Shown here: positions 6,897 through 33,075 of the stretch, piece by piece
Position numbering within the stretch: the stretch's first letter is position 1
Layout: each line of letters opens with the position of its first letter
From: a bacterium
GTDB taxonomy: Bacteria > Gemmatimonadota > Glassbacteria > GWA2-58-10
Direction: 5' to 3'
NCBI GenBank assembly: GCA_021372515.1
Contig: JAJFUG010000023.1
Coordinates: 1 to 38,967, forward strand
Length of the DNA: 38,967 bases
Notes under the pieces: model-generated
Databases searched by the model: none
The model's input: the letters and a program-made list of their open reading frames with translations, nothing else
Told to the model about the DNA's origin: nothing
Position numbers and translations under genes: made by a program

Positions 6897-8533
6897 ACAT
6901 GCCCAAAGCCGCCCGGTTCCGGGCCAGCCTGGGGCTCAAGGCCAGCCTGGCCGTGATCGCCCTGATCTGCCTGATCTCGGCCCTGTTCTCGACTTTCTTC
7001 ATCCTGTACCAGAAAAGCTCCTCGCTGAACGAGTTGCGCAAGCGGGCCCTGTCCCTGGCCGAAACCCTGGCCTACAACAGCCGCTACTCAGTGTACGCCG
7101 GGGATATCCAGACCCTTAGCCGCCTGATCGACGGCTCGCGGCACGACAGCGACATCCTGCGCGCCGCCCTGACCGACCTGGAGGGCAAGCCGATCGTCTC
7201 CTCCGGGTTCCCGGCGCGCTGCGCGGACAGCCTGCTCAGCCTGGGACGGCGGGACAGCCTGGCCGACTGGTTCCCGCTGGAGGAGGGGAAAGTCTACCGC
7301 GCCCAGGTGCCGATCCCTGGGGAGCAGGTCCGCAGCGGGGAGGACGAGTCGTTCCTGTTCGAGCCGCTGAGCGAGGAGAAAGGTGACTCCGTGGAGGCAG
7401 TGAAAGGGGAGACGATTGCAGGTTACGCCGTGCTGGATGTCTCGCTCGGGAGCATGAACCGCGGCCTGACCGCTGCGGCGCGCTGGGCCGGGCTTCTCAC
7501 CCTGGCCCTGATCCTGGTCTCCATCGCCGCAGTGGTGCTGATCGTGCGGCGGCTGGTCAGCCCGATCTACAGCCTGGCCGAGGCCACCCAGGAGGTGGCG
7601 CGCGGCGAGTTCGGCCTGCGGGTGGAACTGGAGCGCAAGGATGAGCTGGGCGTGCTGGCCGATTCGTTCAACGAGATGAGCACCCGGCTCAAGACCTCGC
7701 GCGATGAGTTCGACGCCCTGAACCAGGAACTCGAAAAGCGGGTCAGCGAGAGCACCTCCGAGCTGGTGGCGCGCTACGGCGAGCTGCAGAGCACCCTGAG
7801 CCAGATGCGCAGCCTGAACGCGGCCAAGGATGATTTCATCTCGCTGGTCTCGCACGAGCTGCGCACCCCGCTCAGCTCGATCCAGCTGTTCTCGGAGACG
7901 CTGCTCCACGGCCTGAGCAAGGAGGAGACAAAGCGCGCCGATGTCCTGAGCACAATCATCCGTAACTGCCGCCGCCTGTCGCGCCTGATCAACGATGTGC
8001 TCGACCTGTCGCGCATGGAGGCCGGAAGGGTCCAGGTGCACCTGCGCCGCTTCGACCTGGCCGAGCTGACCGCCGTGACCCTCGATTCGCTCGAGCCCAA
8101 TTTCGCCGACCGCTCCCTGGTCTGCGCACGGGAATTCCCGCGCAACGGTATCGAGCTGACCAGCGACCCGGACAAGGTGATCCAGGTGGTGACCAATGTG
8201 GTGGGCAATGCGATCAAGTTCTCGCCGGCGGGTTCACGGATCGAGGTGGGGATCGAGATGCCGGAGGGCGACGCCCTGATCCGGGTGCGTGACCACGGGC
8301 CCGGAATCGCCCCGGAGGACATCCCCAAGGTGTTCGACAAGTTCCATCAGCTCGAGAATATCAACCTGACCGTGGAGGGCAGCGGCCTGGGCATGTCGAT
8401 CTCGAAGACACTGGTCGAGGTCCTGGGGGGGAGAATCTGGATCGAGAGCCGGGTGGGGGACGGCACCTGCGTGTTCATCCGCCTGCCGGGCAAAGTGCCA
8501 GCCCGGCTGTCGGCCAAGGCGCGGCCGGCCTGA
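6893..8533 (+). CDS. Membrane sensor histidine kinase (HAMP, HisKA, HATPase)
   Basis: The ATG at 6893 overlaps the preceding stop (ATGA); the product has 546 residues. TM1 is about residues 17-38, a periplasmic sensor region about 39-195, TM2 about 199-218, then HAMP (about 219-270) and a coiled-coil linker (about 275-310). The HisKA phospho-site is H331 in SHELRTPLSS. The ATPase domain has an N box (NVVGNAIKFSP), a G1 box (DHGPGIAPEDIP), an F box (FDKFHQ) and a G2 box (GSGLGMSISKTL). It is a complete, apparently active kinase. The periplasmic loop is short and resembles no sensor domain I recognise, in keeping with signalling through the binding protein made from the same transcript. It is the last gene before the terminator at 8560. 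Confidence 0.93.
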   Translation: MNMPKAARFRASLGLKASLAVIALICLISALFSTFFILYQKSSSLNELRKRALSLAETLAYNSRYSVYAGDIQTLSRLIDGSRHDSDILRAALTDLEGKPIVSSGFPARCADSLLSLGRRDSLADWFPLEEGKVYRAQVPIPGEQVRSGEDESFLFEPLSEEKGDSVEAVKGETIAGYAVLDVSLGSMNRGLTAAARWAGLLTLALILVSIAAVVLIVRRLVSPIYSLAEATQEVARGEFGLRVELERKDELGVLADSFNEMSTRLKTSRDEFDALNQELEKRVSESTSELVARYGELQSTLSQMRSLNAAKDDFISLVSHELRTPLSSIQLFSETLLHGLSKEETKRADVLSTIIRNCRRLSRLINDVLDLSRMEAGRVQVHLRRFDLAELTAVTLDSLEPNFADRSLVCAREFPRNGIELTSDPDKVIQVVTNVVGNAIKFSPAGSRIEVGIEMPEGDALIRVRDHGPGIAPEDIPKVFDKFHQLENINLTVEGSGLGMSISKTLVEVLGGRIWIESRVGDGTCVFIRLPGKVPARLSAKARPA

Positions 8534-8559
8534 GAACTCGGGTAGATACCTTGTTAACG

Positions 8560-8593
8560 CAGGGGCAATTCTTGAATTGCCCCTGTTTTTTTT
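8560..8593 (+). terminator. Rho-independent terminator after the histidine kinase
   Basis: A perfect 11-bp stem (CAGGGGCAATT / AATTGCCCCTG) with a CTTG loop is followed by eight T residues. It lies 26 nt after the kinase stop codon and closes the sensory cassette on the plus strand. Confidence 0.95.
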
Positions 8594-8703
8594 AAAGGCT
8601 GCTGGCTTTTGATCATGCAGCCTGAGGACAAAAACGGCGTCTTGCAGACCGGGGTAGAATAAGAAGGTACGATAGAAGATGGATGCAGGTCGGGGGCGGC
8701 TGC

Positions 8704-11407: not shown

Positions 11408-11803
11408 ATGCGCAAGATCAGCCTTCAGACCAGCCGCCGCACCGAATTCATCGACATAACCGACCAGGTGGAACTGGCTCTGGCTGACTCGGGAGTGCGG
11501 GAGGGTGTCTGCACGGTGTTCACACCGCACACGACCGCCGCGGTGACGATCAACGAGAACGCCGACCCCAGCGTGCCGCGCGACATCCTCGAAATAGTCG
11601 ACTCCGTGGTTCCGTTCGATTCCCCCCGTTACCGTCACTCCGAGGGCAACAGCGCCGCCCATATCAAGAGCAGCCTGTTCGGTTGCAGCTTGCAGGTGAT
11701 CGTGGAGGAGGGCCGCTTGCAGCTGGGCACCTGGCAGGGGGTCTATTTCGTGGAGTTCGACGGGCCGCGCAGCCGCAAGGTCTGGATCACATTTACACAT
11801 TGA
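11408..11803 (+). CDS. yjbQ: YjbQ family protein (UPF0047, thiamine-phosphate-synthase-like)
   Basis: The ATG at 11408 follows a strong AGGGGAGG and gives 131 residues, the usual size of the family. Typical features are FIDITDQV near the start, the histidine-rich FTPHTTAAVTINENADP, a second conserved histidine in HIKSSLFG, and the closing GTWQGVYFVEFDGPR. E. coli YjbQ has a weak thiamine-phosphate synthase activity, but the physiological role of the family is not settled. The gene stands alone; a TTGACA at 11336-11341 could be a -35 box, though I see no convincing -10. Confidence 0.9.
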   Translation: MRKISLQTSRRTEFIDITDQVELALADSGVREGVCTVFTPHTTAAVTINENADPSVPRDILEIVDSVVPFDSPRYRHSEGNSAAHIKSSLFGCSLQVIVEEGRLQLGTWQGVYFVEFDGPRSRKVWITFTH

Positions 11804-11850
11804 AACCCGAATCGGCAAGACATTCCCAATAAACAACGAGGCGTTGTAGC

Positions 11851-11875
11851 GTAGGGGCGGGTTTCAAACCCGCCC
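11851..11875. repeat. GTAGGGGCG palindromic repeat, copy 1
   Basis: The 25-bp element starts GTAGGGGCGGG and ends CCCGCCC, able to fold into a hairpin (GGGCGGGTTT against AAACCCGCCC). It belongs to a family also found at 11906, 14010, 14118, 33024 and 33050. It lies between convergent yjbQ and the GHMP kinase gene. Confidence 0.8.
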
Positions 11876-11905
11876 TTATTGCGCAGCTGGCGGATGATTT
11901 TTTTC

Positions 11906-11931
11906 GTAGGGGCGGCCCCCTGTGACCGCCC
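11906..11931. repeat. GTAGGGGCG palindromic repeat, copy 2
   Basis: This 26-bp copy (GTAGGGGCGG ... ACCGCCC) has the same orientation as copy 1, 30 bp away. Only the outer GTAGGGGCG and CGCCC parts are shared; the centre differs but stays partly self-complementary. Confidence 0.75.
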
Positions 11932-11992
11932 GAAATGCTGTTGTGCACGGTGCAGAGTGCCCCCCCTTTTTTATACCTCCCTCTAATAGAAA

Positions 11993-12011
11993 CGGCGGCC
12001 CGGGGCCGCCG
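11993..12011 (-). terminator. Possible terminator of the galU-GHMP kinase operon
   Basis: CGGCGGCC and GGCCGCCG form an 8-bp GC stem around a 3-nt loop. Read on the minus strand it is followed by TTTCTATT, a weak T run, 34 nt beyond the kinase stop. A pure GC hairpin without a firm T run is only suggestive. Confidence 0.4.
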
Positions 12012-12044
12012 CATATCGGATAGATACAAAGAGTCAAACCCACC

Positions 12045-13031
12045 TTACTCGACCTCTTCCACGGTCAGGCCCGGCTGGCGCGGGTCGAGGTGCAGCACCC
12101 GCGAGTCGGCCTCGCGGCGGAACGCCGCTACAAGTTTCTCCGGCTCGGTGTGCAGTGCGATTATCGTTCCCCCGCCGCCCGCACCGGCCAGCTTGGCCCC
12201 CAGGGCGCCGTGCTCCAGGGCCAGAGTGATGAACTTGTCGTTGGCCTTGCCACTCGCCCCCAGCTCCTGCTGGATCGCGTGGTTGCGGTTCATCAGCCGT
12301 CCAAGTTCCGGCCAGTCGCGGCGCAGGAGCGCTTTCTTGCCCCGGCGGGCCAGCTCGGCGATCTCGCGGTAACCCTCCACCACGGCCGGGTCTCCCTCCA
12401 GCCAGCGCTCACGGATCGGCTTGAGGATACTGCCCGAGATACGCTGCACGCCCGTGTGCACCACCACCATCGGCAACTCGTCCACGAACCGCGCCAGCGG
12501 CTCCACCGTGGCGTAGACCTCGCCCTCCAGGTCGCGGTAGACCTCCTTGGTCCGGAAATCCAGGTAGTTCATGCCGCCGAATACGGTCATGTACTGGTCC
12601 TGGTAGCCACACTGGATGTCCATGTAGTTGAGCTCAATGTAGCGGATCGTCTCGGCGGTCTGGTAAGGGTTGATGTCACGGCCGACAAAGCGGCAGACCG
12701 CGCCGAACACGGCGGCCAGCATGGCGGTGGAGCCGGCCAGCCCGCTGCGGAACGGCACATCGCTTTCGCCCTCCAGGCGGAAAGCCTGTTTAGACAGGCG
12801 CAGGTAGCGGATCACGCTGCGGGCGATGTCGAACACCCCGCTGTCCATCTTGAGGTCGCGCTCGTCGCGGATCACGGCCTCCTGGCCGGCGAAACACAAC
12901 TCAAGTTGCTTGGCCGGGCTGATCCGCGCCGTGGCGCGGCAGCTCAGGGTGCATGAGACCAGGCTGCCGCCGTAGCCGTCCGTGGGGTTGCCGATCACAC
13001 CTGCCCGGGCCGGGGCCGATGCTACGATCAT
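12045..13031 (-). CDS. GHMP-family sugar kinase
   Basis: This 328-residue protein carries the GHMP signature: an N-terminal substrate loop (APARAGVIGNPTDGYGG), the ATP-binding loop (RSGLAGSTAMLAAV, a variant of PxxxGLGSS) and the C-terminal GAKLAGAGGGGTII. The family phosphorylates small alcohols and sugars. Its start overlaps the upstream nucleotidyltransferase gene by 4 nt (ATGA). That coupling suggests it makes a sugar-1-phosphate that the neighbour activates, as in glucuronokinase or galactokinase pathways. The substrate is inferred from context only. Confidence 0.85.
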   Translation of the reverse strand: MIVASAPARAGVIGNPTDGYGGSLVSCTLSCRATARISPAKQLELCFAGQEAVIRDERDLKMDSGVFDIARSVIRYLRLSKQAFRLEGESDVPFRSGLAGSTAMLAAVFGAVCRFVGRDINPYQTAETIRYIELNYMDIQCGYQDQYMTVFGGMNYLDFRTKEVYRDLEGEVYATVEPLARFVDELPMVVVHTGVQRISGSILKPIRERWLEGDPAVVEGYREIAELARRGKKALLRRDWPELGRLMNRNHAIQQELGASGKANDKFITLALEHGALGAKLAGAGGGGTIIALHTEPEKLVAAFRREADSRVLHLDPRQPGLTVEEVE

Positions 13032-13912
13032 ACCAGCCTCGCCAGGTAGTTGCGCAGCATGTGTCCGTATTTCTCATCCTGCAGCGCGAAATCGACAAAG
13101 GCACGGAAATAGCTCTCGAAATTGCCGATGTCGTAGCGTTTCTCCTCCTCACCCATCAGCACGGCGTAGACCGGAAGGCCTTTTTTGATGAGCAGGGAGA
13201 TCGAGTCCGTGATCTGCAACTCGCCGCTCTTGCCGGGCAGGGTCATGTCGATGGCGTCGAAAATGGCGGGCGAAAACACGTAGCGCGCCGCGATGGCCAG
13301 GTCGCTGGGGGCATCCTCGATGTCCGGCTTCTCGACCAGGCTCTCCACCGAGAACACCCCGGGCGCGGTCTCTGCCTTGAACTTCACGATGCCGTAGCGG
13401 TAGGCCTCGCCGGGCGGGATACGCTCGATGGCGATGGTGCAGGCGGCCTTGTTCTTCTCGTGCACCTCCATCATGCGCTGCAGCAGGCTGCGCCCGCCCT
13501 GGCCGGAGCGGATGATCGAATCGCCCAGGGCGCAGACAAAGTTGTCCTCGGCCACGAAATCGCGCGCCAGGTTGATCGCATCGGCCAGGCCTTTCTGCTC
13601 GCTCTGGCGCACGTAGTAGAAACTGACGCTCATTTCCTGGTAGCGCAGCTCAGCGACCAGGGAGGACTTGCCGGTCTGGTTCAGCTCCTTGACCAGTTGC
13701 ACGTCCTTGTCGAAATGGTTCTCGATCGAGCGTTTGTGGCGGCCAGTGACAAACAGGATCTGCTTGAGCCCGGCTTTCTCGATCTCCTCCACCACATACT
13801 GCACCACCGGTTTGCGCCCCACGGGCAGCATTTCCTTGGGCTGGCTCTTGGTCGCGGGCAACAGGCGCGTGCCGTGCCCGGCCACCGGCACTACGACTTT
13901 TTTGATCGGCAT
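13028..13912 (-). CDS. galU: UTP-glucose-1-phosphate uridylyltransferase (GalU type)
   Basis: The ATG at 13912 is preceded by GGAGG at 8 nt and gives 294 residues, matching GalU. It would join UTP and a hexose-1-phosphate into a UDP-sugar. The nucleotide-binding loop VVPVAGHGTRLLPATKSQPKEMLP is spread over residues 7-30; further marks are KPVVQYVVEEI, VTGRHKRSIENHFD, FVCALGDSI and LVEKP. The usual AAGxGTR reads AGHGTR. The tail is about normal length. The gene leads a two-gene operon with the GHMP kinase. The stretch upstream (13913-14251) contains no gene, only a pair of inverted palindromic repeats. Confidence 0.93.
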   Translation of the reverse strand: MPIKKVVVPVAGHGTRLLPATKSQPKEMLPVGRKPVVQYVVEEIEKAGLKQILFVTGRHKRSIENHFDKDVQLVKELNQTGKSSLVAELRYQEMSVSFYYVRQSEQKGLADAINLARDFVAEDNFVCALGDSIIRSGQGGRSLLQRMMEVHEKNKAACTIAIERIPPGEAYRYGIVKFKAETAPGVFSVESLVEKPDIEDAPSDLAIAARYVFSPAIFDAIDMTLPGKSGELQITDSISLLIKKGLPVYAVLMGEEEKRYDIGNFESYFRAFVDFALQDEKYGHMLRNYLARLV

Positions 13913-14009
13913 GGTAAGGACCTCCACGTATGGTTATTTTTTAGGATAATGATTCATAATTTTCGAGTCTTAGGCGTACACTTCAACATATTCCTCGAAA
14001 AAAACTGAC

Positions 14010-14034
14010 GGGCGAACACAAGGTTCGCCCCTAC
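14010..14034. repeat. GTAGGGGCG palindromic repeat, copy 3 (inverted)
   Basis: The 25-bp element is the exact reverse complement of copy 4 at 14118-14142. The two copies enclose 83 bp and lie in the 339-bp gene-free stretch between galU and the DUF4416 gene. Each copy folds on itself, with GGGCGAAC pairing with GTTCGCCC. Confidence 0.85.
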
Positions 14035-14117
14035 ACCGTTTGTTGTTTGTGGTACAGAATTCCGAACCCCTGGAATACGCACCTGGGGTGCATATTAAAA
14101 CACTTCGAGAGGATATC

Positions 14118-14142
14118 GTAGGGGCGAACCTTGTGTTCGCCC
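14118..14142. repeat. GTAGGGGCG palindromic repeat, copy 4
   Basis: The element (GTAGGGGCGAAC ... GTTCGCCC) is identical over 25 bp to copy 3 read on the other strand. A transcript across both could form either two small hairpins or one long stem. Confidence 0.85.
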
Positions 14143-14251
14143 GATAGGATACGAGTAGAATAGGCATCACACATAAAAACACCCTCCGGAATAGTGCACG
14201 GCGCTGGCTGAATTTAGGCCCCCGGGGCCGGTGTTGTCAACGCTGGGACGC

Positions 14252-14809
14252 TCAGGGCCGCTCCTCTGGATGGGGTTCGAGCATCTGGCGCTTGTAGAGG
14301 CGGCGAATCTCCAGGAGCGCGCTGTCATAGGCCCCGAGCTTGAAATCCGGGAAAGTCCATTCGAACTTGGCCCAGCCGCCCTTGCGGTAGTAGAGGGTCA
14401 GGTCGGCCCAAACCCCCTCGCCGATGAATATTTTCTGGCCCATGTACTTGAACGAGGCCAGCACGACTTTCTGGTAGTCCAGTGTGCCGGGGTCGACATT
14501 CACCTGTCGGTTGCCGCCGGGTGCGGCCAGCTCGCGCTCGATCCGGTCGGTGGCGAGCTTGGACTGGGCCAACGCACCGGGGTGGACCAGGCGCTCCCAG
14601 GCGACAAAAATGCGCTTGAGGCCCGCGCCCATCTCGGCTTCGTAAAAATCCGTGTGCTCGAACGGGAACGGCTCACTGACAAAGTCTTCCGGGCCGTACA
14701 GCCCGGAAAGCCGCTCCCGGGCCCGCTCCAGCAGGCTTTCCTCGGAATAGAGGATCGCGGCGAACAGCTTCACCGGCTCCACCCGTCCTTTGGCCGGTCC
14801 CTGGTTCAT
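14252..14809 (-). CDS. DUF4416 family protein
   Basis: This 185-residue protein matches the DUF4416 pattern: VKLFAAILYSEESLL at the start, FPFEHTDFYEAEMG in the first third, LATDRIERELA, a central NVDPGTLDYQKVVLAS, and DLTLYYRKGGWAKFEWTFPDFK near the end. The family is widespread in bacteria and has no established function, although some members have been labelled GTP-binding. The start overlaps the upstream NAT-like gene by 4 nt, so the two are co-translated. Confidence 0.85.
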   Translation of the reverse strand: MNQGPAKGRVEPVKLFAAILYSEESLLERARERLSGLYGPEDFVSEPFPFEHTDFYEAEMGAGLKRIFVAWERLVHPGALAQSKLATDRIERELAAPGGNRQVNVDPGTLDYQKVVLASFKYMGQKIFIGEGVWADLTLYYRKGGWAKFEWTFPDFKLGAYDSALLEIRRLYKRQMLEPHPEERP

Positions 14810-30483: not shown

Positions 30484-30639
30484 GCCTTGTTTTTCAGCCG
30501 TGGCGTTGATAACGGAGCCTCCAGGGCCTTTGGCTCGGGAGGCCGAGTTGTAGGCAGGTGCTAAATGGATGCGCTTGCTGGTTCAGAAAATAGCAGAGAT
30601 TGCCTTTCTATAAGGCTTCTAACGGATAAGGAGAGGTTG

Positions 30640-32031
30640 GTGAAGCAGAAGACCATAGCCCGGCCTGTCAGTTGTTCTGGAATCGGGATACACACGGGTG
30701 TGCACACGACTGTCAAGTTCTGCCCTGCCGAGGTAAACACCGGCGTAGTGTTTATCCGCACGGACATGGAAAACCAGCCGGTCATTCCGGCCCGTGTCGA
30801 GAATGTGAGCAGTGTCAACCGCGGCACCACTATCTCCAGCAACGGCGCCAAGGTCTATACGGTGGAGCACGTGCTGGCCGCGGTGGCCGGGCTGGGGATC
30901 GACAACCTGCGCATCGAGCTGGACGGGATCGAGACCCCGGTGGGGGACGGCAGTTCGCATGTGTTTGTCACGGCCCTGGAAAGCGCCGGGGTGGTCGAGC
31001 AGGAGGCGGCCCGGAAAGTGGCGGTCCTCACCGAGCCGCTCACCTTCGAGGAGAACGGCGTGCATTTCCTGCTCCTGCCCAGCGACAGCCTCAAGATCAG
31101 TTTCCACATCGAGTACCCCAACCCCATAGTCGGCTGCCAGTTCGATTCCATAGAGATCACGCCCGAGAATTTCCGCAAGTACATCTCCATCGCCCGCACC
31201 TTCGCTTTCCTGGACGACATCGAGGGGCTGAAGAAAGCAGGACTGATCAAGGGCGGGAGCTTGGACAACGCGGTGGTGATCGACAAGGACCGCATCCTCA
31301 ACGACGATCCGCTGCGCTCCCCCAAGGAGCTGGTCCGCCACAAGATTCTCGATCTGCTGGGGGATGTGTTCCTGCTGGGGATGCCGATCCAGGCGCATAT
31401 CATCGCCTCCAAGAGCGGGCACCCGACCAACATATCCCTGGTGCGCAAACTGCGCGAGCACCTGGCCCGCCAGGACCAGGCCGCGGCCGTGGAGGACATC
31501 TCTGTCCCGGCGGAGGGCCGTCAGCTCATCGGGCGGGCCGGTTCGGATATGCCTCCGGGTGATATCCGCGGGATGGTCATGGGGATCAAGGAGATCATGG
31601 CCAAGATACCGCACCGCTACCCGTTCCTGCTGGTGGACCGGATCCTGCATTTCGAGGCTGAGAAGCGGGTCGTGGGCCTGAAAAACGTCTCGATGAACGA
31701 GCACTTCTTCCAGGGGCATTTCCCCGGACACCCGATCATGCCGGGGGTGCTGATCATCGAGGCCATGGGTCAGACTGGCGGGCTGCTGCTGATGAACAGC
31801 GTCCCGGAGCCGGAGAACAAGGTGATGTATTTCATGAGCCTGGACCAGATCAAGTTCCGCAAGCCGGTTTTCCCGGGGGATCAGCTCAGGATGGAAGTGG
31901 AGATGATCAAGTTCCGCCACCGTATCTGCAAGATGTACGGACGCAGCTACGTGGGCGATGACCTGGTGGCCGAGGCCGAGATGACCGCCATGGTCGTCGA
32001 CCGTGACCGTCTGCCGGATACGGGTGTCTGA
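30640..32031 (+). CDS. lpxC/fabZ: Fused LpxC deacetylase and FabZ dehydratase
   Basis: The GTG at 30640 has AAGGAG at 6 nt and places VKQKTIARPV in register with E. coli LpxC (MIKQRTL); an upstream ATG at 30565 is less likely. The 464-residue protein has LpxC in residues about 1-300: E76-H77 of the zinc site (YTVEHVLAAVAG), ARTFAFLDDIE, HKILDLLGD and SGHPTN. A linker leads to FabZ in residues about 310-464: the catalytic histidine in KIPHRYPFLLVDR, then HFPGHPIMPGVLIIEAMGQ with its glutamate. LpxC commits UDP-acylglucosamine to lipid A. FabZ dehydrates 3-hydroxyacyl-ACP. Both compete for the same hydroxyacyl pool, so the fusion may balance LPS and phospholipid. Such fusions are known in Bacteroidetes and relatives. 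Confidence 0.96.
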   Translation: MKQKTIARPVSCSGIGIHTGVHTTVKFCPAEVNTGVVFIRTDMENQPVIPARVENVSSVNRGTTISSNGAKVYTVEHVLAAVAGLGIDNLRIELDGIETPVGDGSSHVFVTALESAGVVEQEAARKVAVLTEPLTFEENGVHFLLLPSDSLKISFHIEYPNPIVGCQFDSIEITPENFRKYISIARTFAFLDDIEGLKKAGLIKGGSLDNAVVIDKDRILNDDPLRSPKELVRHKILDLLGDVFLLGMPIQAHIIASKSGHPTNISLVRKLREHLARQDQAAAVEDISVPAEGRQLIGRAGSDMPPGDIRGMVMGIKEIMAKIPHRYPFLLVDRILHFEAEKRVVGLKNVSMNEHFFQGHFPGHPIMPGVLIIEAMGQTGGLLLMNSVPEPENKVMYFMSLDQIKFRKPVFPGDQLRMEVEMIKFRHRICKMYGRSYVGDDLVAEAEMTAMVVDRDRLPDTGV

Positions 32032-32160
32032 GTGGAAGGTGGCTGTTTTGCAGACAGTAAGCTGCACAAGAGGAAACAGAATGCTTATCAGCGCCGGCAA
32101 AGCCCGGACTGGATTGTGAATTCGGCCCCTGAGTCAGGGGCCTGCCGCGAGGAAAGAAAA

Positions 32161-32931
32161 TTGGCCATTCATCCAACCGCGATAATCGATCCCTCGGCAG
32201 AGATCGCCGGGGACGTGGAGGTCGGTCCTTATACGGTGATCGGCCCGAACGTGAAGATCGGCCCGGGCACAGTGCTCGGACCGCACGTCTTCATCTACAA
32301 GAACACCACCATCGGACGGGATTGCCGTCTCTGGAACGGGGCCGCCCTGGGCGCCGACAGCCAGGACCTCAAGTACACCGGCCAGCCGACCTATCTCGAA
32401 ATCGCCGACCGCACCACGATCCGCGAGTTCGCCACCCTGAACCGCGCCACCACCGAGGGCTGCGCCACCCATGTGGGCAGCGACTGCCTGATCATGGCCT
32501 ATTCGCACGTGGCGCACGATTGTAATGTGGGCGACAACGTGATCCTCTCCAATGCGGTCAACATGGCCGGGCATGTCACGATCGGCGACTTCGCCATAAT
32601 CAGCGGCCTGACCTGCATCCACCAGTTCGTGCACGTGGGTGTGCATAGCTTCATCGGTGGGGGCAGCCGGGTGCCCAAGGATGTGCCGCCCTACGTGATG
32701 GCCGTGGGCAACCCGATCATGCTCAACGGCCTGAACACCGTGGGCCTTCAGCGCCGCGGGTTCAGCGAGGAGGTGCGCCTGGAGCTCAAGCGCGCCTACA
32801 AGATATTCTTCCGCAGCCAGTACAACATCTCGCAGGCCTTGGAAATCGCGCGCACCGAGCTGAAACAGCTCCCGGAGATCAAGATTTTCAACGATTTCAT
32901 CGCCCGCTCCGAGCGCGGCGTGCTGGTCTGA
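32161..32931 (+). CDS. lpxA: LpxA, acyl-ACP-UDP-GlcNAc O-acyltransferase
   Basis: TTG at 32161 has GAGGA at 7 nt and yields 256 residues starting AIHPTAIIDPSAEI, as in the family (E. coli 262); the frame extends further upstream without homology. The hexapeptide beta-helix, the catalytic histidine region YSHVAHDCNVGDNV and SGLTCIHQFVHVG, and the C-terminal helices starting NTVGLQRRGFS are all present. LpxA performs the first step of lipid A synthesis. It ends the bam-skp-lpx group; lpxB does not follow, so the disaccharide synthase must lie elsewhere. Confidence 0.95.
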   Translation: MAIHPTAIIDPSAEIAGDVEVGPYTVIGPNVKIGPGTVLGPHVFIYKNTTIGRDCRLWNGAALGADSQDLKYTGQPTYLEIADRTTIREFATLNRATTEGCATHVGSDCLIMAYSHVAHDCNVGDNVILSNAVNMAGHVTIGDFAIISGLTCIHQFVHVGVHSFIGGGSRVPKDVPPYVMAVGNPIMLNGLNTVGLQRRGFSEEVRLELKRAYKIFFRSQYNISQALEIARTELKQLPEIKIFNDFIARSERGVLV

Positions 32932-33023: not shown

Positions 33024-33049
33024 GTAGGGGCGGGCCCATGTGTCCGCCC
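33024..33049. repeat. GTAGGGGCG palindromic repeat, copy 5
   Basis: The 26-bp element (GTAGGGGCGGGC ... GTCCGCCC) lies between lpxA and the MFS gene and abuts copy 6, which is in the opposite orientation. Confidence 0.8.
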
Positions 33050-33075
33050 GGGCGCACACGCGGGTGCGCCCCTGC
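33050..33075. repeat. GTAGGGGCG-type palindromic repeat, copy 6 (inverted)
   Basis: Read on the minus strand it begins GCAGGGGCGCACC and ends GTGCGCCC, a variant with GCAG in place of GTAG. Together with copy 5 it forms a 52-bp head-to-head pair with no spacer. Confidence 0.7.

Follow-up and report, generated by a model that had tools for sequence, protein, structure and literature searches.

Repetitive extragenic palindromes (REPs), REP-associated tyrosine transposases (RAYTs, also TnpA_REP), the specific pairing of the two and the occurrence of REPs inside RAYT genes have all been published, as set out in the main texts of PMC3733652 and PMC6006769. According to the former (Di Nocera et al. 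2013), members of the GTAG super-family of REPs share a GTAG at one end, stems of mostly 6-9 bp (up to 13) with short loops, high copy number, head-to-head (HH) and tail-to-tail (TT) dimers, a link to RAYTs and reported occurrences in genes. According to the latter (Quentin et al. 2018), RAYTs of subclass 2.4, or Bertels group 4, share the motifs NH[IFV]H, WQ and YIxNNP, are scattered over phyla and carry a REP in frame in the RAYT gene between the HuH and Y motifs, and their REPs have stems that open with three G-C pairs and include 'double foot' forms. The same main text already stated that each tnpA_REP is paired with a specific REP family, and regarded the in-gene REP as a remarkable and unique feature that probably affects the protein little. 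We describe here a family of short hairpins that shares these features, found in a 38,967-nucleotide stretch of DNA (contig JAJFUG010000023.1, referred to as the window) from a genome of the Glassbacteria.

We conclude, with a probability of about 0.9, that these elements are GTAG-class REPs and substrates of subclass 2.4 (group 4) RAYTs encoded elsewhere in the same genome. The genome thus holds a real, genome-wide REP population together with several RAYTs of the subclass 2.4 type, which is a known kind of system.

GTAG hairpins in the window and across the genome

A sequence-only reading of the window had described four hairpins between positions 11,851 and 14,142, with GTAGGGGCG at one end and CGCCC at the other, and all four were confirmed to the base (Table 1). 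The copies at 14010 and 14118 are indeed exact inverted copies, with 26 matched nt separated by a spacer of 83 nt. The self-complementary centres, described there as variable, are not free variants of one element and rather represent separate recurrent REP types. It had gone unnoticed that five REP types, which go with different RAYTs, occur together in the window; by their centres they can be distinguished as GGGTTTnAAACCC, GGCC-CCNYGT, GAAC-CTTGT, a GGAC/GCAC-CCNYGT dimer and AATTCTTGAATT.

A laxer hairpin scan brought the total to seven elements (at 8559, 11851, 11906, 14010, 14118, 33024 and 33050), compared to a mean of 0.47 and a maximum of 3 in 100 block-shuffled windows. The full pattern, GTAGGGGCGN{4,24}CGCCC, matched five times in the window versus a mean of 0.02 in 100 shuffles, and the bare 9-mer with one mismatch tolerated was weakly enriched (19 versus 12.3). 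Each REP is a non-coding hairpin 23-26 nt long, in which the GTAG foot stays unpaired and the base of the stem is always GGGC/GCCC. The foot reads GTAG in five of the seven window elements and GCAG in the other two, and the folds of all four first-cluster copies leave the four foot bases unpaired, in agreement with the GTAG super-family; in the 11906 copy the inner stem is broken and six pairs are retained. REPs of the super-family are expected to be mainly extragenic across a genome; within the window the elements are intergenic, as had been claimed for the first four: the six in 11851-14142 and 33024-33075 are flanked by genes with Pfam matches, and the one at 8559 lies between genes according to the open reading frame (ORF) table. 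An Rfam scan of the whole window returned no match at gathering scores.

Table 1. REPs of the window, and REPs embedded in RAYT genes of the same genome and of two relatives (G001, G005)
Location	Positions	Strand	REP type	Remarks
Window	8559..8582	+	AATTCTTGAATT, GCAG foot	1 centre mismatch to REPs embedded in RAYT loci L149, L160, L191
Window	11851..11875	+	GGGTTTnAAACCC, 25 nt, single foot	DNA fold -11.4 kcal/mol, z -4.96
Window	11906..11931	+	GGCC-CCNYGT-GGCC, decayed inner stem	1 mismatch to REP embedded in own RAYT C159
Window	14010..14034	-	GAAC-CTTGT-GTTC	Left half of TT dimer (GTAG ends inside); T-rich tail next on - strand
Window	14118..14142	+	GAAC-CTTGT-GTTC	Right half of TT dimer; identical sequence embedded in broken RAYT of G005 (C86)
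Window	33024..33049	+	GGGC-CCATGT-GTCC (near GGAC class)	First half of directly fused HH dimer
Window	33050..33075	-	GCAC-CCGCGT-GTGC, GCAG foot	Second half of fused HH dimer; dimer kind embedded in own RAYT C164
RAYT gene, C159			AGGC-CCCTGT and GGCC-CCCTGT	
RAYT gene, C164			GGAC/GCAC fused dimer	
RAYT gene, C4			GAGGCCTGCCTC	
RAYT gene, C149			ACGGTGCACCGT	
RAYT gene, G001 C34			GGGTTTTAAACCC	Same-family genome
RAYT gene, G005 C86			GAACCTTGTGTTC	RAYT frame broken

The sequence-only reading had proposed a genome-wide pattern search as the means of telling a repeat family from chance occurrence. In the whole genome (4.87 Mb in 222 contigs, the window lying on contig C23), the full pattern yielded 90 + 100 = 190 matches versus 5 + 2 = 7 for the reversed pattern, sites with feet on both sides entering the count twice, so that enrichment over chance is evident. 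A variant pattern in which GTAGGGGC is followed by A, C or T revealed a further 85 matches versus 7 reversed, and both counts accord with the high copy number of the GTAG super-family.

Site analysis covered 91 sites, corresponding to the 100 matches listed of the 190. At the three stem positions left free by the pattern (6, 7 and 8), Watson-Crick pairing was observed in 270 of 273 cells, with three to four pair types at each position, indicating that structure and not sequence is conserved at these positions; such a compensated palindromic stem again characterizes the super-family. Seven directly fused 26+26 pairs were present among these sites. By our stem rule, 86 of the 91 sites belong to types that are also embedded in a RAYT gene of the same or a same-family genome. 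The other five (on C32, C45, C54, C72 and C80) are REPs with an ATATAT centre that match no RAYT-embedded REP seen, and they constitute either an orphan type or a type whose RAYT is still unseen.

RAYT genes and REP types across phyla

The hairpins had been likened to REP-type elements spread by a RAYT-like transposase, with the remark that no such gene is in the window, and our own-genome searches indeed list none on contig C23. A first protein search, with the RAYT of contig C159 as query, scored 8 of 49 candidates, and a repeat search with insert-free N- and C-terminal profiles scored every candidate. About four RAYT genes of the group-4 type were found in the genome, on contigs C159, C164, C4 and C133/C149, the fragments on the last two contig ends probably being one gene. 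The Pfam family PF01797 proved a poor RAYT finder: it rings at an ordinary IS200 TnpA on C18 (L031 1456-1896; intact, 146 aa) and weakly at C159, and overlooks C164 and C4.

The C159 RAYT (~192 aa, GTG start) contains NHIH, WQRGYYEHVVR and YILNNP, and HxH, WQR and YI..NP motifs are present in all three genes of the motif alignment (C159, C164 and C4; the split C133/C149 gene was left out). Specifically, C159 (NHIH/WQ/YILNNP) and C164 (NHFH/WQ/YILNNP) carry the subclass 2.4 motifs, whereas C4 departs from them (DHLH, YIALNP) and is a divergent relative. In the E. coli RAYT, positions W94, Q95, E100, H101 and R104 have been tied to GTAG contact (main text of PMC6006769), and in our own comparison the WQRGYYEHVVR of C159 reads W, Q, E, H, R at this same spacing. 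Searched against the PDB, the C-terminal RAYT profile yielded 4er8 (TnpArep; E 8.7e-4) as its sole match up to E 0.1, and when four RAYTs (three from this genome and one from G001, a genome of the same family) were scored with NCBIfam models, NF047646 (REP_Tyr_transpos) came out best for each.

In each of these RAYT genes the reading frame runs through a GTAGGGGC REP, located between the HuH and W/Y motifs (Table 1), as reported for subclass 2.4. Because a REP is embedded in the RAYT gene, hairpin types can be matched to likely enzymes. REPs of the same type also flank the C4 gene on both sides and the C159 and C133 genes on one side, C164 having the embedded copy only. As for the window types, those at 11906 and 33024 have their counterparts embedded in RAYTs of the same genome (C159 and C164), and that at 11851 has a matching RAYT in G001 (C34). 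The 14010/14118 type has a counterpart only in the broken RAYT of G005, another genome of the family, and the 8559 type was seen, with 1 mismatch, at three RAYT loci outside the family, no search having been aimed at that type. The in-gene REP is not universal, being absent, for example, from the RAYTs of G006, G021, G137, G285 and G065. In the first three of these (L109, L110 and L077), double-foot GCAGCATGCTGC REPs nevertheless flank the RAYTs that lack an in-gene REP; in G371, G282 and G076 the GCAGCATGCTGC REP sits inside the RAYT gene, which provides a natural contrast of genes with and without it.

The relation between REP and RAYT was examined across many phyla in named genomes, using the best 80 of at least 573 confirmed group-4 loci. 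Of the 80 loci, 44 contain an embedded GT[AG]G hairpin, which is GTAGGGGC in 41, and with at most two mismatches an embedded hairpin recurs in the 3-kb flanks of 30 of the 44, compared to a permuted mean of 2.43 and a maximum of 10 in 10,000 permutations. Simply finding a GTAGGGG somewhere in the flanks proved too loose a marker and was not used (63/80 loci versus 48/80 for the reversed string).

When REP type was placed on a tree of the insert-free RAYT core, 43 rows with 8 types required 8 changes (minimum 7), where 500 shuffles averaged 24.0 and never fell below 19. This second version of the tree used a looser motif rule, by which 6 of 114 rows were dropped together with 2 identical rows. 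Of the 106 remaining rows 46 were unlabelled, and 17 of the 60 labelled ones carried a REP type seen once and were excluded from the change count because a unique type is uninformative on inheritance. In the first version, for which the motif rule had removed 27 of 114 rows and 149 of 188 columns were kept, 37 rows with 6 types required 5 changes, the minimum. The GGGTTTnAAACCC type spans Glassbacteria, Chloroflexota, Pseudomonadota and Bacteroidota. Since REP type follows the RAYT tree and single types span phyla, RAYT and hairpin type are inherited or transferred together.

RAYT presence also tracks REP abundance: when 395 genomes of the phylum were surveyed, at least 20 matches were counted in 21 of the 36 with a RAYT versus 8 of the 359 without one (Fisher p 4.5e-19, which is not to be taken literally because the genomes are related). 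For this survey at most 8 RAYT candidates were scored per genome, abundance was counted by eye and the pattern covered only CG...CG sub-types. The reversed control pattern was abundant in G244 (79 + 11), G249, G328, G338, G379 and G311, in some mainly on one strand, perhaps reflecting another repeat family or a repetitive gene. Together with the in-frame REPs of the same family in the group-4 RAYTs of the genome, the tracking of REP abundance by RAYT presence supports the link to a RAYT-like transposase that the sequence-only reading had put forward.

The leftmost embedded GTAGGGGC REP starts with GTAG on the coding strand in 31 of the 41 loci (phase 0 in 25, phase 1 in 5 and phase 2 in 1) and has the opposite orientation in the other 10 (phases 0, 1 and 2 in 1, 4 and 5, respectively). 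On the coding strand phase 2 would bring TAG into frame, and the dominant arrangement is as predicted by either common origin or stop avoidance. Strand and phase vary even within one REP type (e.g. 3 and 2 in GGGTTTnAAACCC), a pattern compatible with the in-gene REP having been renewed. The hairpin sits in one linker but in both orientations, and more than one frame is used even within a single type, which might hint towards repeated renewal and not one old insertion. A more speculative and rather doubtful idea is that the group-4 RAYT keeps its own substrate in frame as a working part, either as a master copy or self-tag matching enzyme and hairpin, or as a hairpin throttling its own gene; RAYT and tag would then travel between phyla as a unit, each tag founding a new REP population.

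By analogy with the RAYTs studied so far, binding, cutting and transposition may be expected here, and any of these RAYTs might still be active. The RAYT would bind the folded single-stranded REP during replication, with GTAG serving as a guide, and its HuH-tyrosine active site would cut, after which the piece would be joined elsewhere, mostly in tolerant intergenic DNA. The moving unit would likely be a REPIN-like dimer of two REPs in opposite orientation, and some copies may later come to act as transcription terminators.

Gene ends in relatives and rival explanations

The positions of the hairpins were also compared among relatives, as had been suggested with the sequence-only reading. G001, G003 and G005 share the gene order UPF0047 - GHMP kinase - nucleotidyltransferase - DUF4416 with the window, three of the four genes are seen in G004, and no match was obtained in G002. 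The same gene ends are without a REP in G003, G005 and the seen part of G004, where the ~3-4 kb examined contain no hairpin of the REP family, even with degenerate feet included. In G001, they carry REPs of other types: its UPF0047-GHMP gap contains two, GGTTCGCGAACC and GACGCATGCGTC, and G001's own RAYT C259 carries the second of these types. Without an outgroup, a gain in the lineage of the window looks the same as a loss elsewhere; differing REP types at one gene end speak for gains. Compared to G001, G003 and G005, the window has by our calculation ~165-210 bp more between the nucleotidyltransferase gene and DUF4416, which is room for the 14010/14118 pair and its spacer. The UPF0047-GHMP gap was rejected as a clean empty site because the relatives carry other DNA there (~57, 430, 960 and 1040 bp). 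In G004, the 3′ end of UPF0047 is tandemly repeated (L212 571-789; 83-bp period, 2.6 copies) in the gap that holds REPs in the window.

This comparison also bears on the best surviving alternative, an improbable one, in which the hairpins are not mobile and have been retained at gene ends for their use as intrinsic transcription terminators or mRNA 3′ stabilisers. The elements do sit downstream of genes, and the 14010 element is followed on the - strand by GTCAGTTTTT. Moreover, the 8559 REP, located behind an ORF ending at 8533, is succeeded by two bases of its own palindrome plus TG and then eight T (window 8559-8600), from which it probably works as a terminator for this ORF. However, termination needs neither a constant GTAG foot nor identical hairpins at many places, and a scan of 11700-14300 did not place the 11851, 11906 and 14118 elements among its terminator-like sites. 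Identical hairpins also occur inside RAYT reading frames, and hairpins are missing at the same gene ends in most relatives. A terminator role is best seen as a later, secondary use of some copies.

It is less likely again that the hairpins are binding sites for a host protein (such as IHF, gyrase or a regulator) multiplied by selection for that function, as five centres within one window and the ties between centres and RAYT lineages fit enzyme-specific spread better, and the copy inside RAYT genes is left unexplained. An origin as ends or remnants of ordinary insertion sequences or miniature inverted-repeat transposable elements of another transposase family is the least credible: the intact IS200-type TnpA on C18 could be a source, but the 3.4 kb around its gene contain no such hairpin, and it is the RAYTs that carry and adjoin identical REPs.

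A number of points weigh against the conclusion that the hairpins are REPs served by group-4 RAYTs of the genome. No own-genome RAYT was found for three of the five window types (GGGTTTnAAACCC, GAAC-CTTGT and AATTC), which may reflect loss, an assembly gap or service by another RAYT. Among the 80 group-4 loci, our scan detected no embedded hairpin in 36, and 14 of the 44 embedded REPs had no near copy in the flanks examined, some of them truncated where a contig stops. Few columns underlie the tree, in whose first version 44 of 82 inner branches were open, and some of its rows come from one genus; its labels, moreover, represent only the first embedded hairpin per gene, in classes of our own. 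In the survey of the phylum, 15 of the 36 RAYT-positive genomes had fewer than 20 REP matches, and the 8 RAYT-negative genomes with at least 20 point the same way. The four RAYTs tested scored 66.8, 47.6, 63.0 and 63.1 bits, below the NF047646 cut-off of 80, so that their naming as RAYTs rests on motifs and REPs and not on that model. Finally, no empty site was resolved to base level.

Elsewhere in the window, a 488-aa ORF (30565-32031) matches LpxC over residues 28-297 and a FabA-like domain over residues 348-472, and probably encodes an LpxC-FabZ fusion; it is adjoined by an LpxA-like gene at 32032-32931. The window itself is ordinary, its hairpins being known mobile elements and not regulatory signals evolved for the adjoining genes.

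Comparison with known systems

The string GTAGGGG is absent from the main text of PMC3733652, and one of its 24 families may be the same as the present one. In the literature searched, which leaves out most subscription papers and the 2018 supplement (Figure S10), neither the Glassbacteria repeats described here nor a correspondence of embedded REP type and RAYT lineage across a tree of subclass 2.4 was found.

REPINs and bacterial interspersed mosaic elements (BIMEs) resemble the present elements in that two REPs of opposite orientation form a unit, here represented by 33024-33075 and the seven fused 26+26 pairs. Inverted REP pairs are seen in both the window and the genome, and what is observed is the pairs, the pair as a replicating unit being what marks a REPIN. 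In contrast to REPINs and BIMEs, many copies here are single or double-foot, and movement in pairs is only a proposal.

The biochemistry of the E. coli and group-3 RAYTs (PMC8266576, as far as its accessible text goes) likewise features GTAG as a guide, a folded single-stranded substrate and co-evolution of RAYT and cognate REP. It concerns groups 2 and 3, and to our knowledge includes no group-4 enzyme.

REPs are widespread short bacterial repeats, and the matching of REP and enzyme has so far been bench-tested for few RAYTs. In group 4 the gene often carries the hairpin, so that for many uncultured lineages the sequence alone tells which enzyme and substrate are likely to belong together. 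Binding and cutting tests could thereby draw on ready pairs, with mismatched ones as controls, and orphan REP populations, for which no matching RAYT is in sight, become recognisable. This is also where the present analysis differs from the main text of PMC6006769: the embedded REP serves here as a label, and across phyla this label was checked both against the REPs next to the gene and against RAYT lineage.

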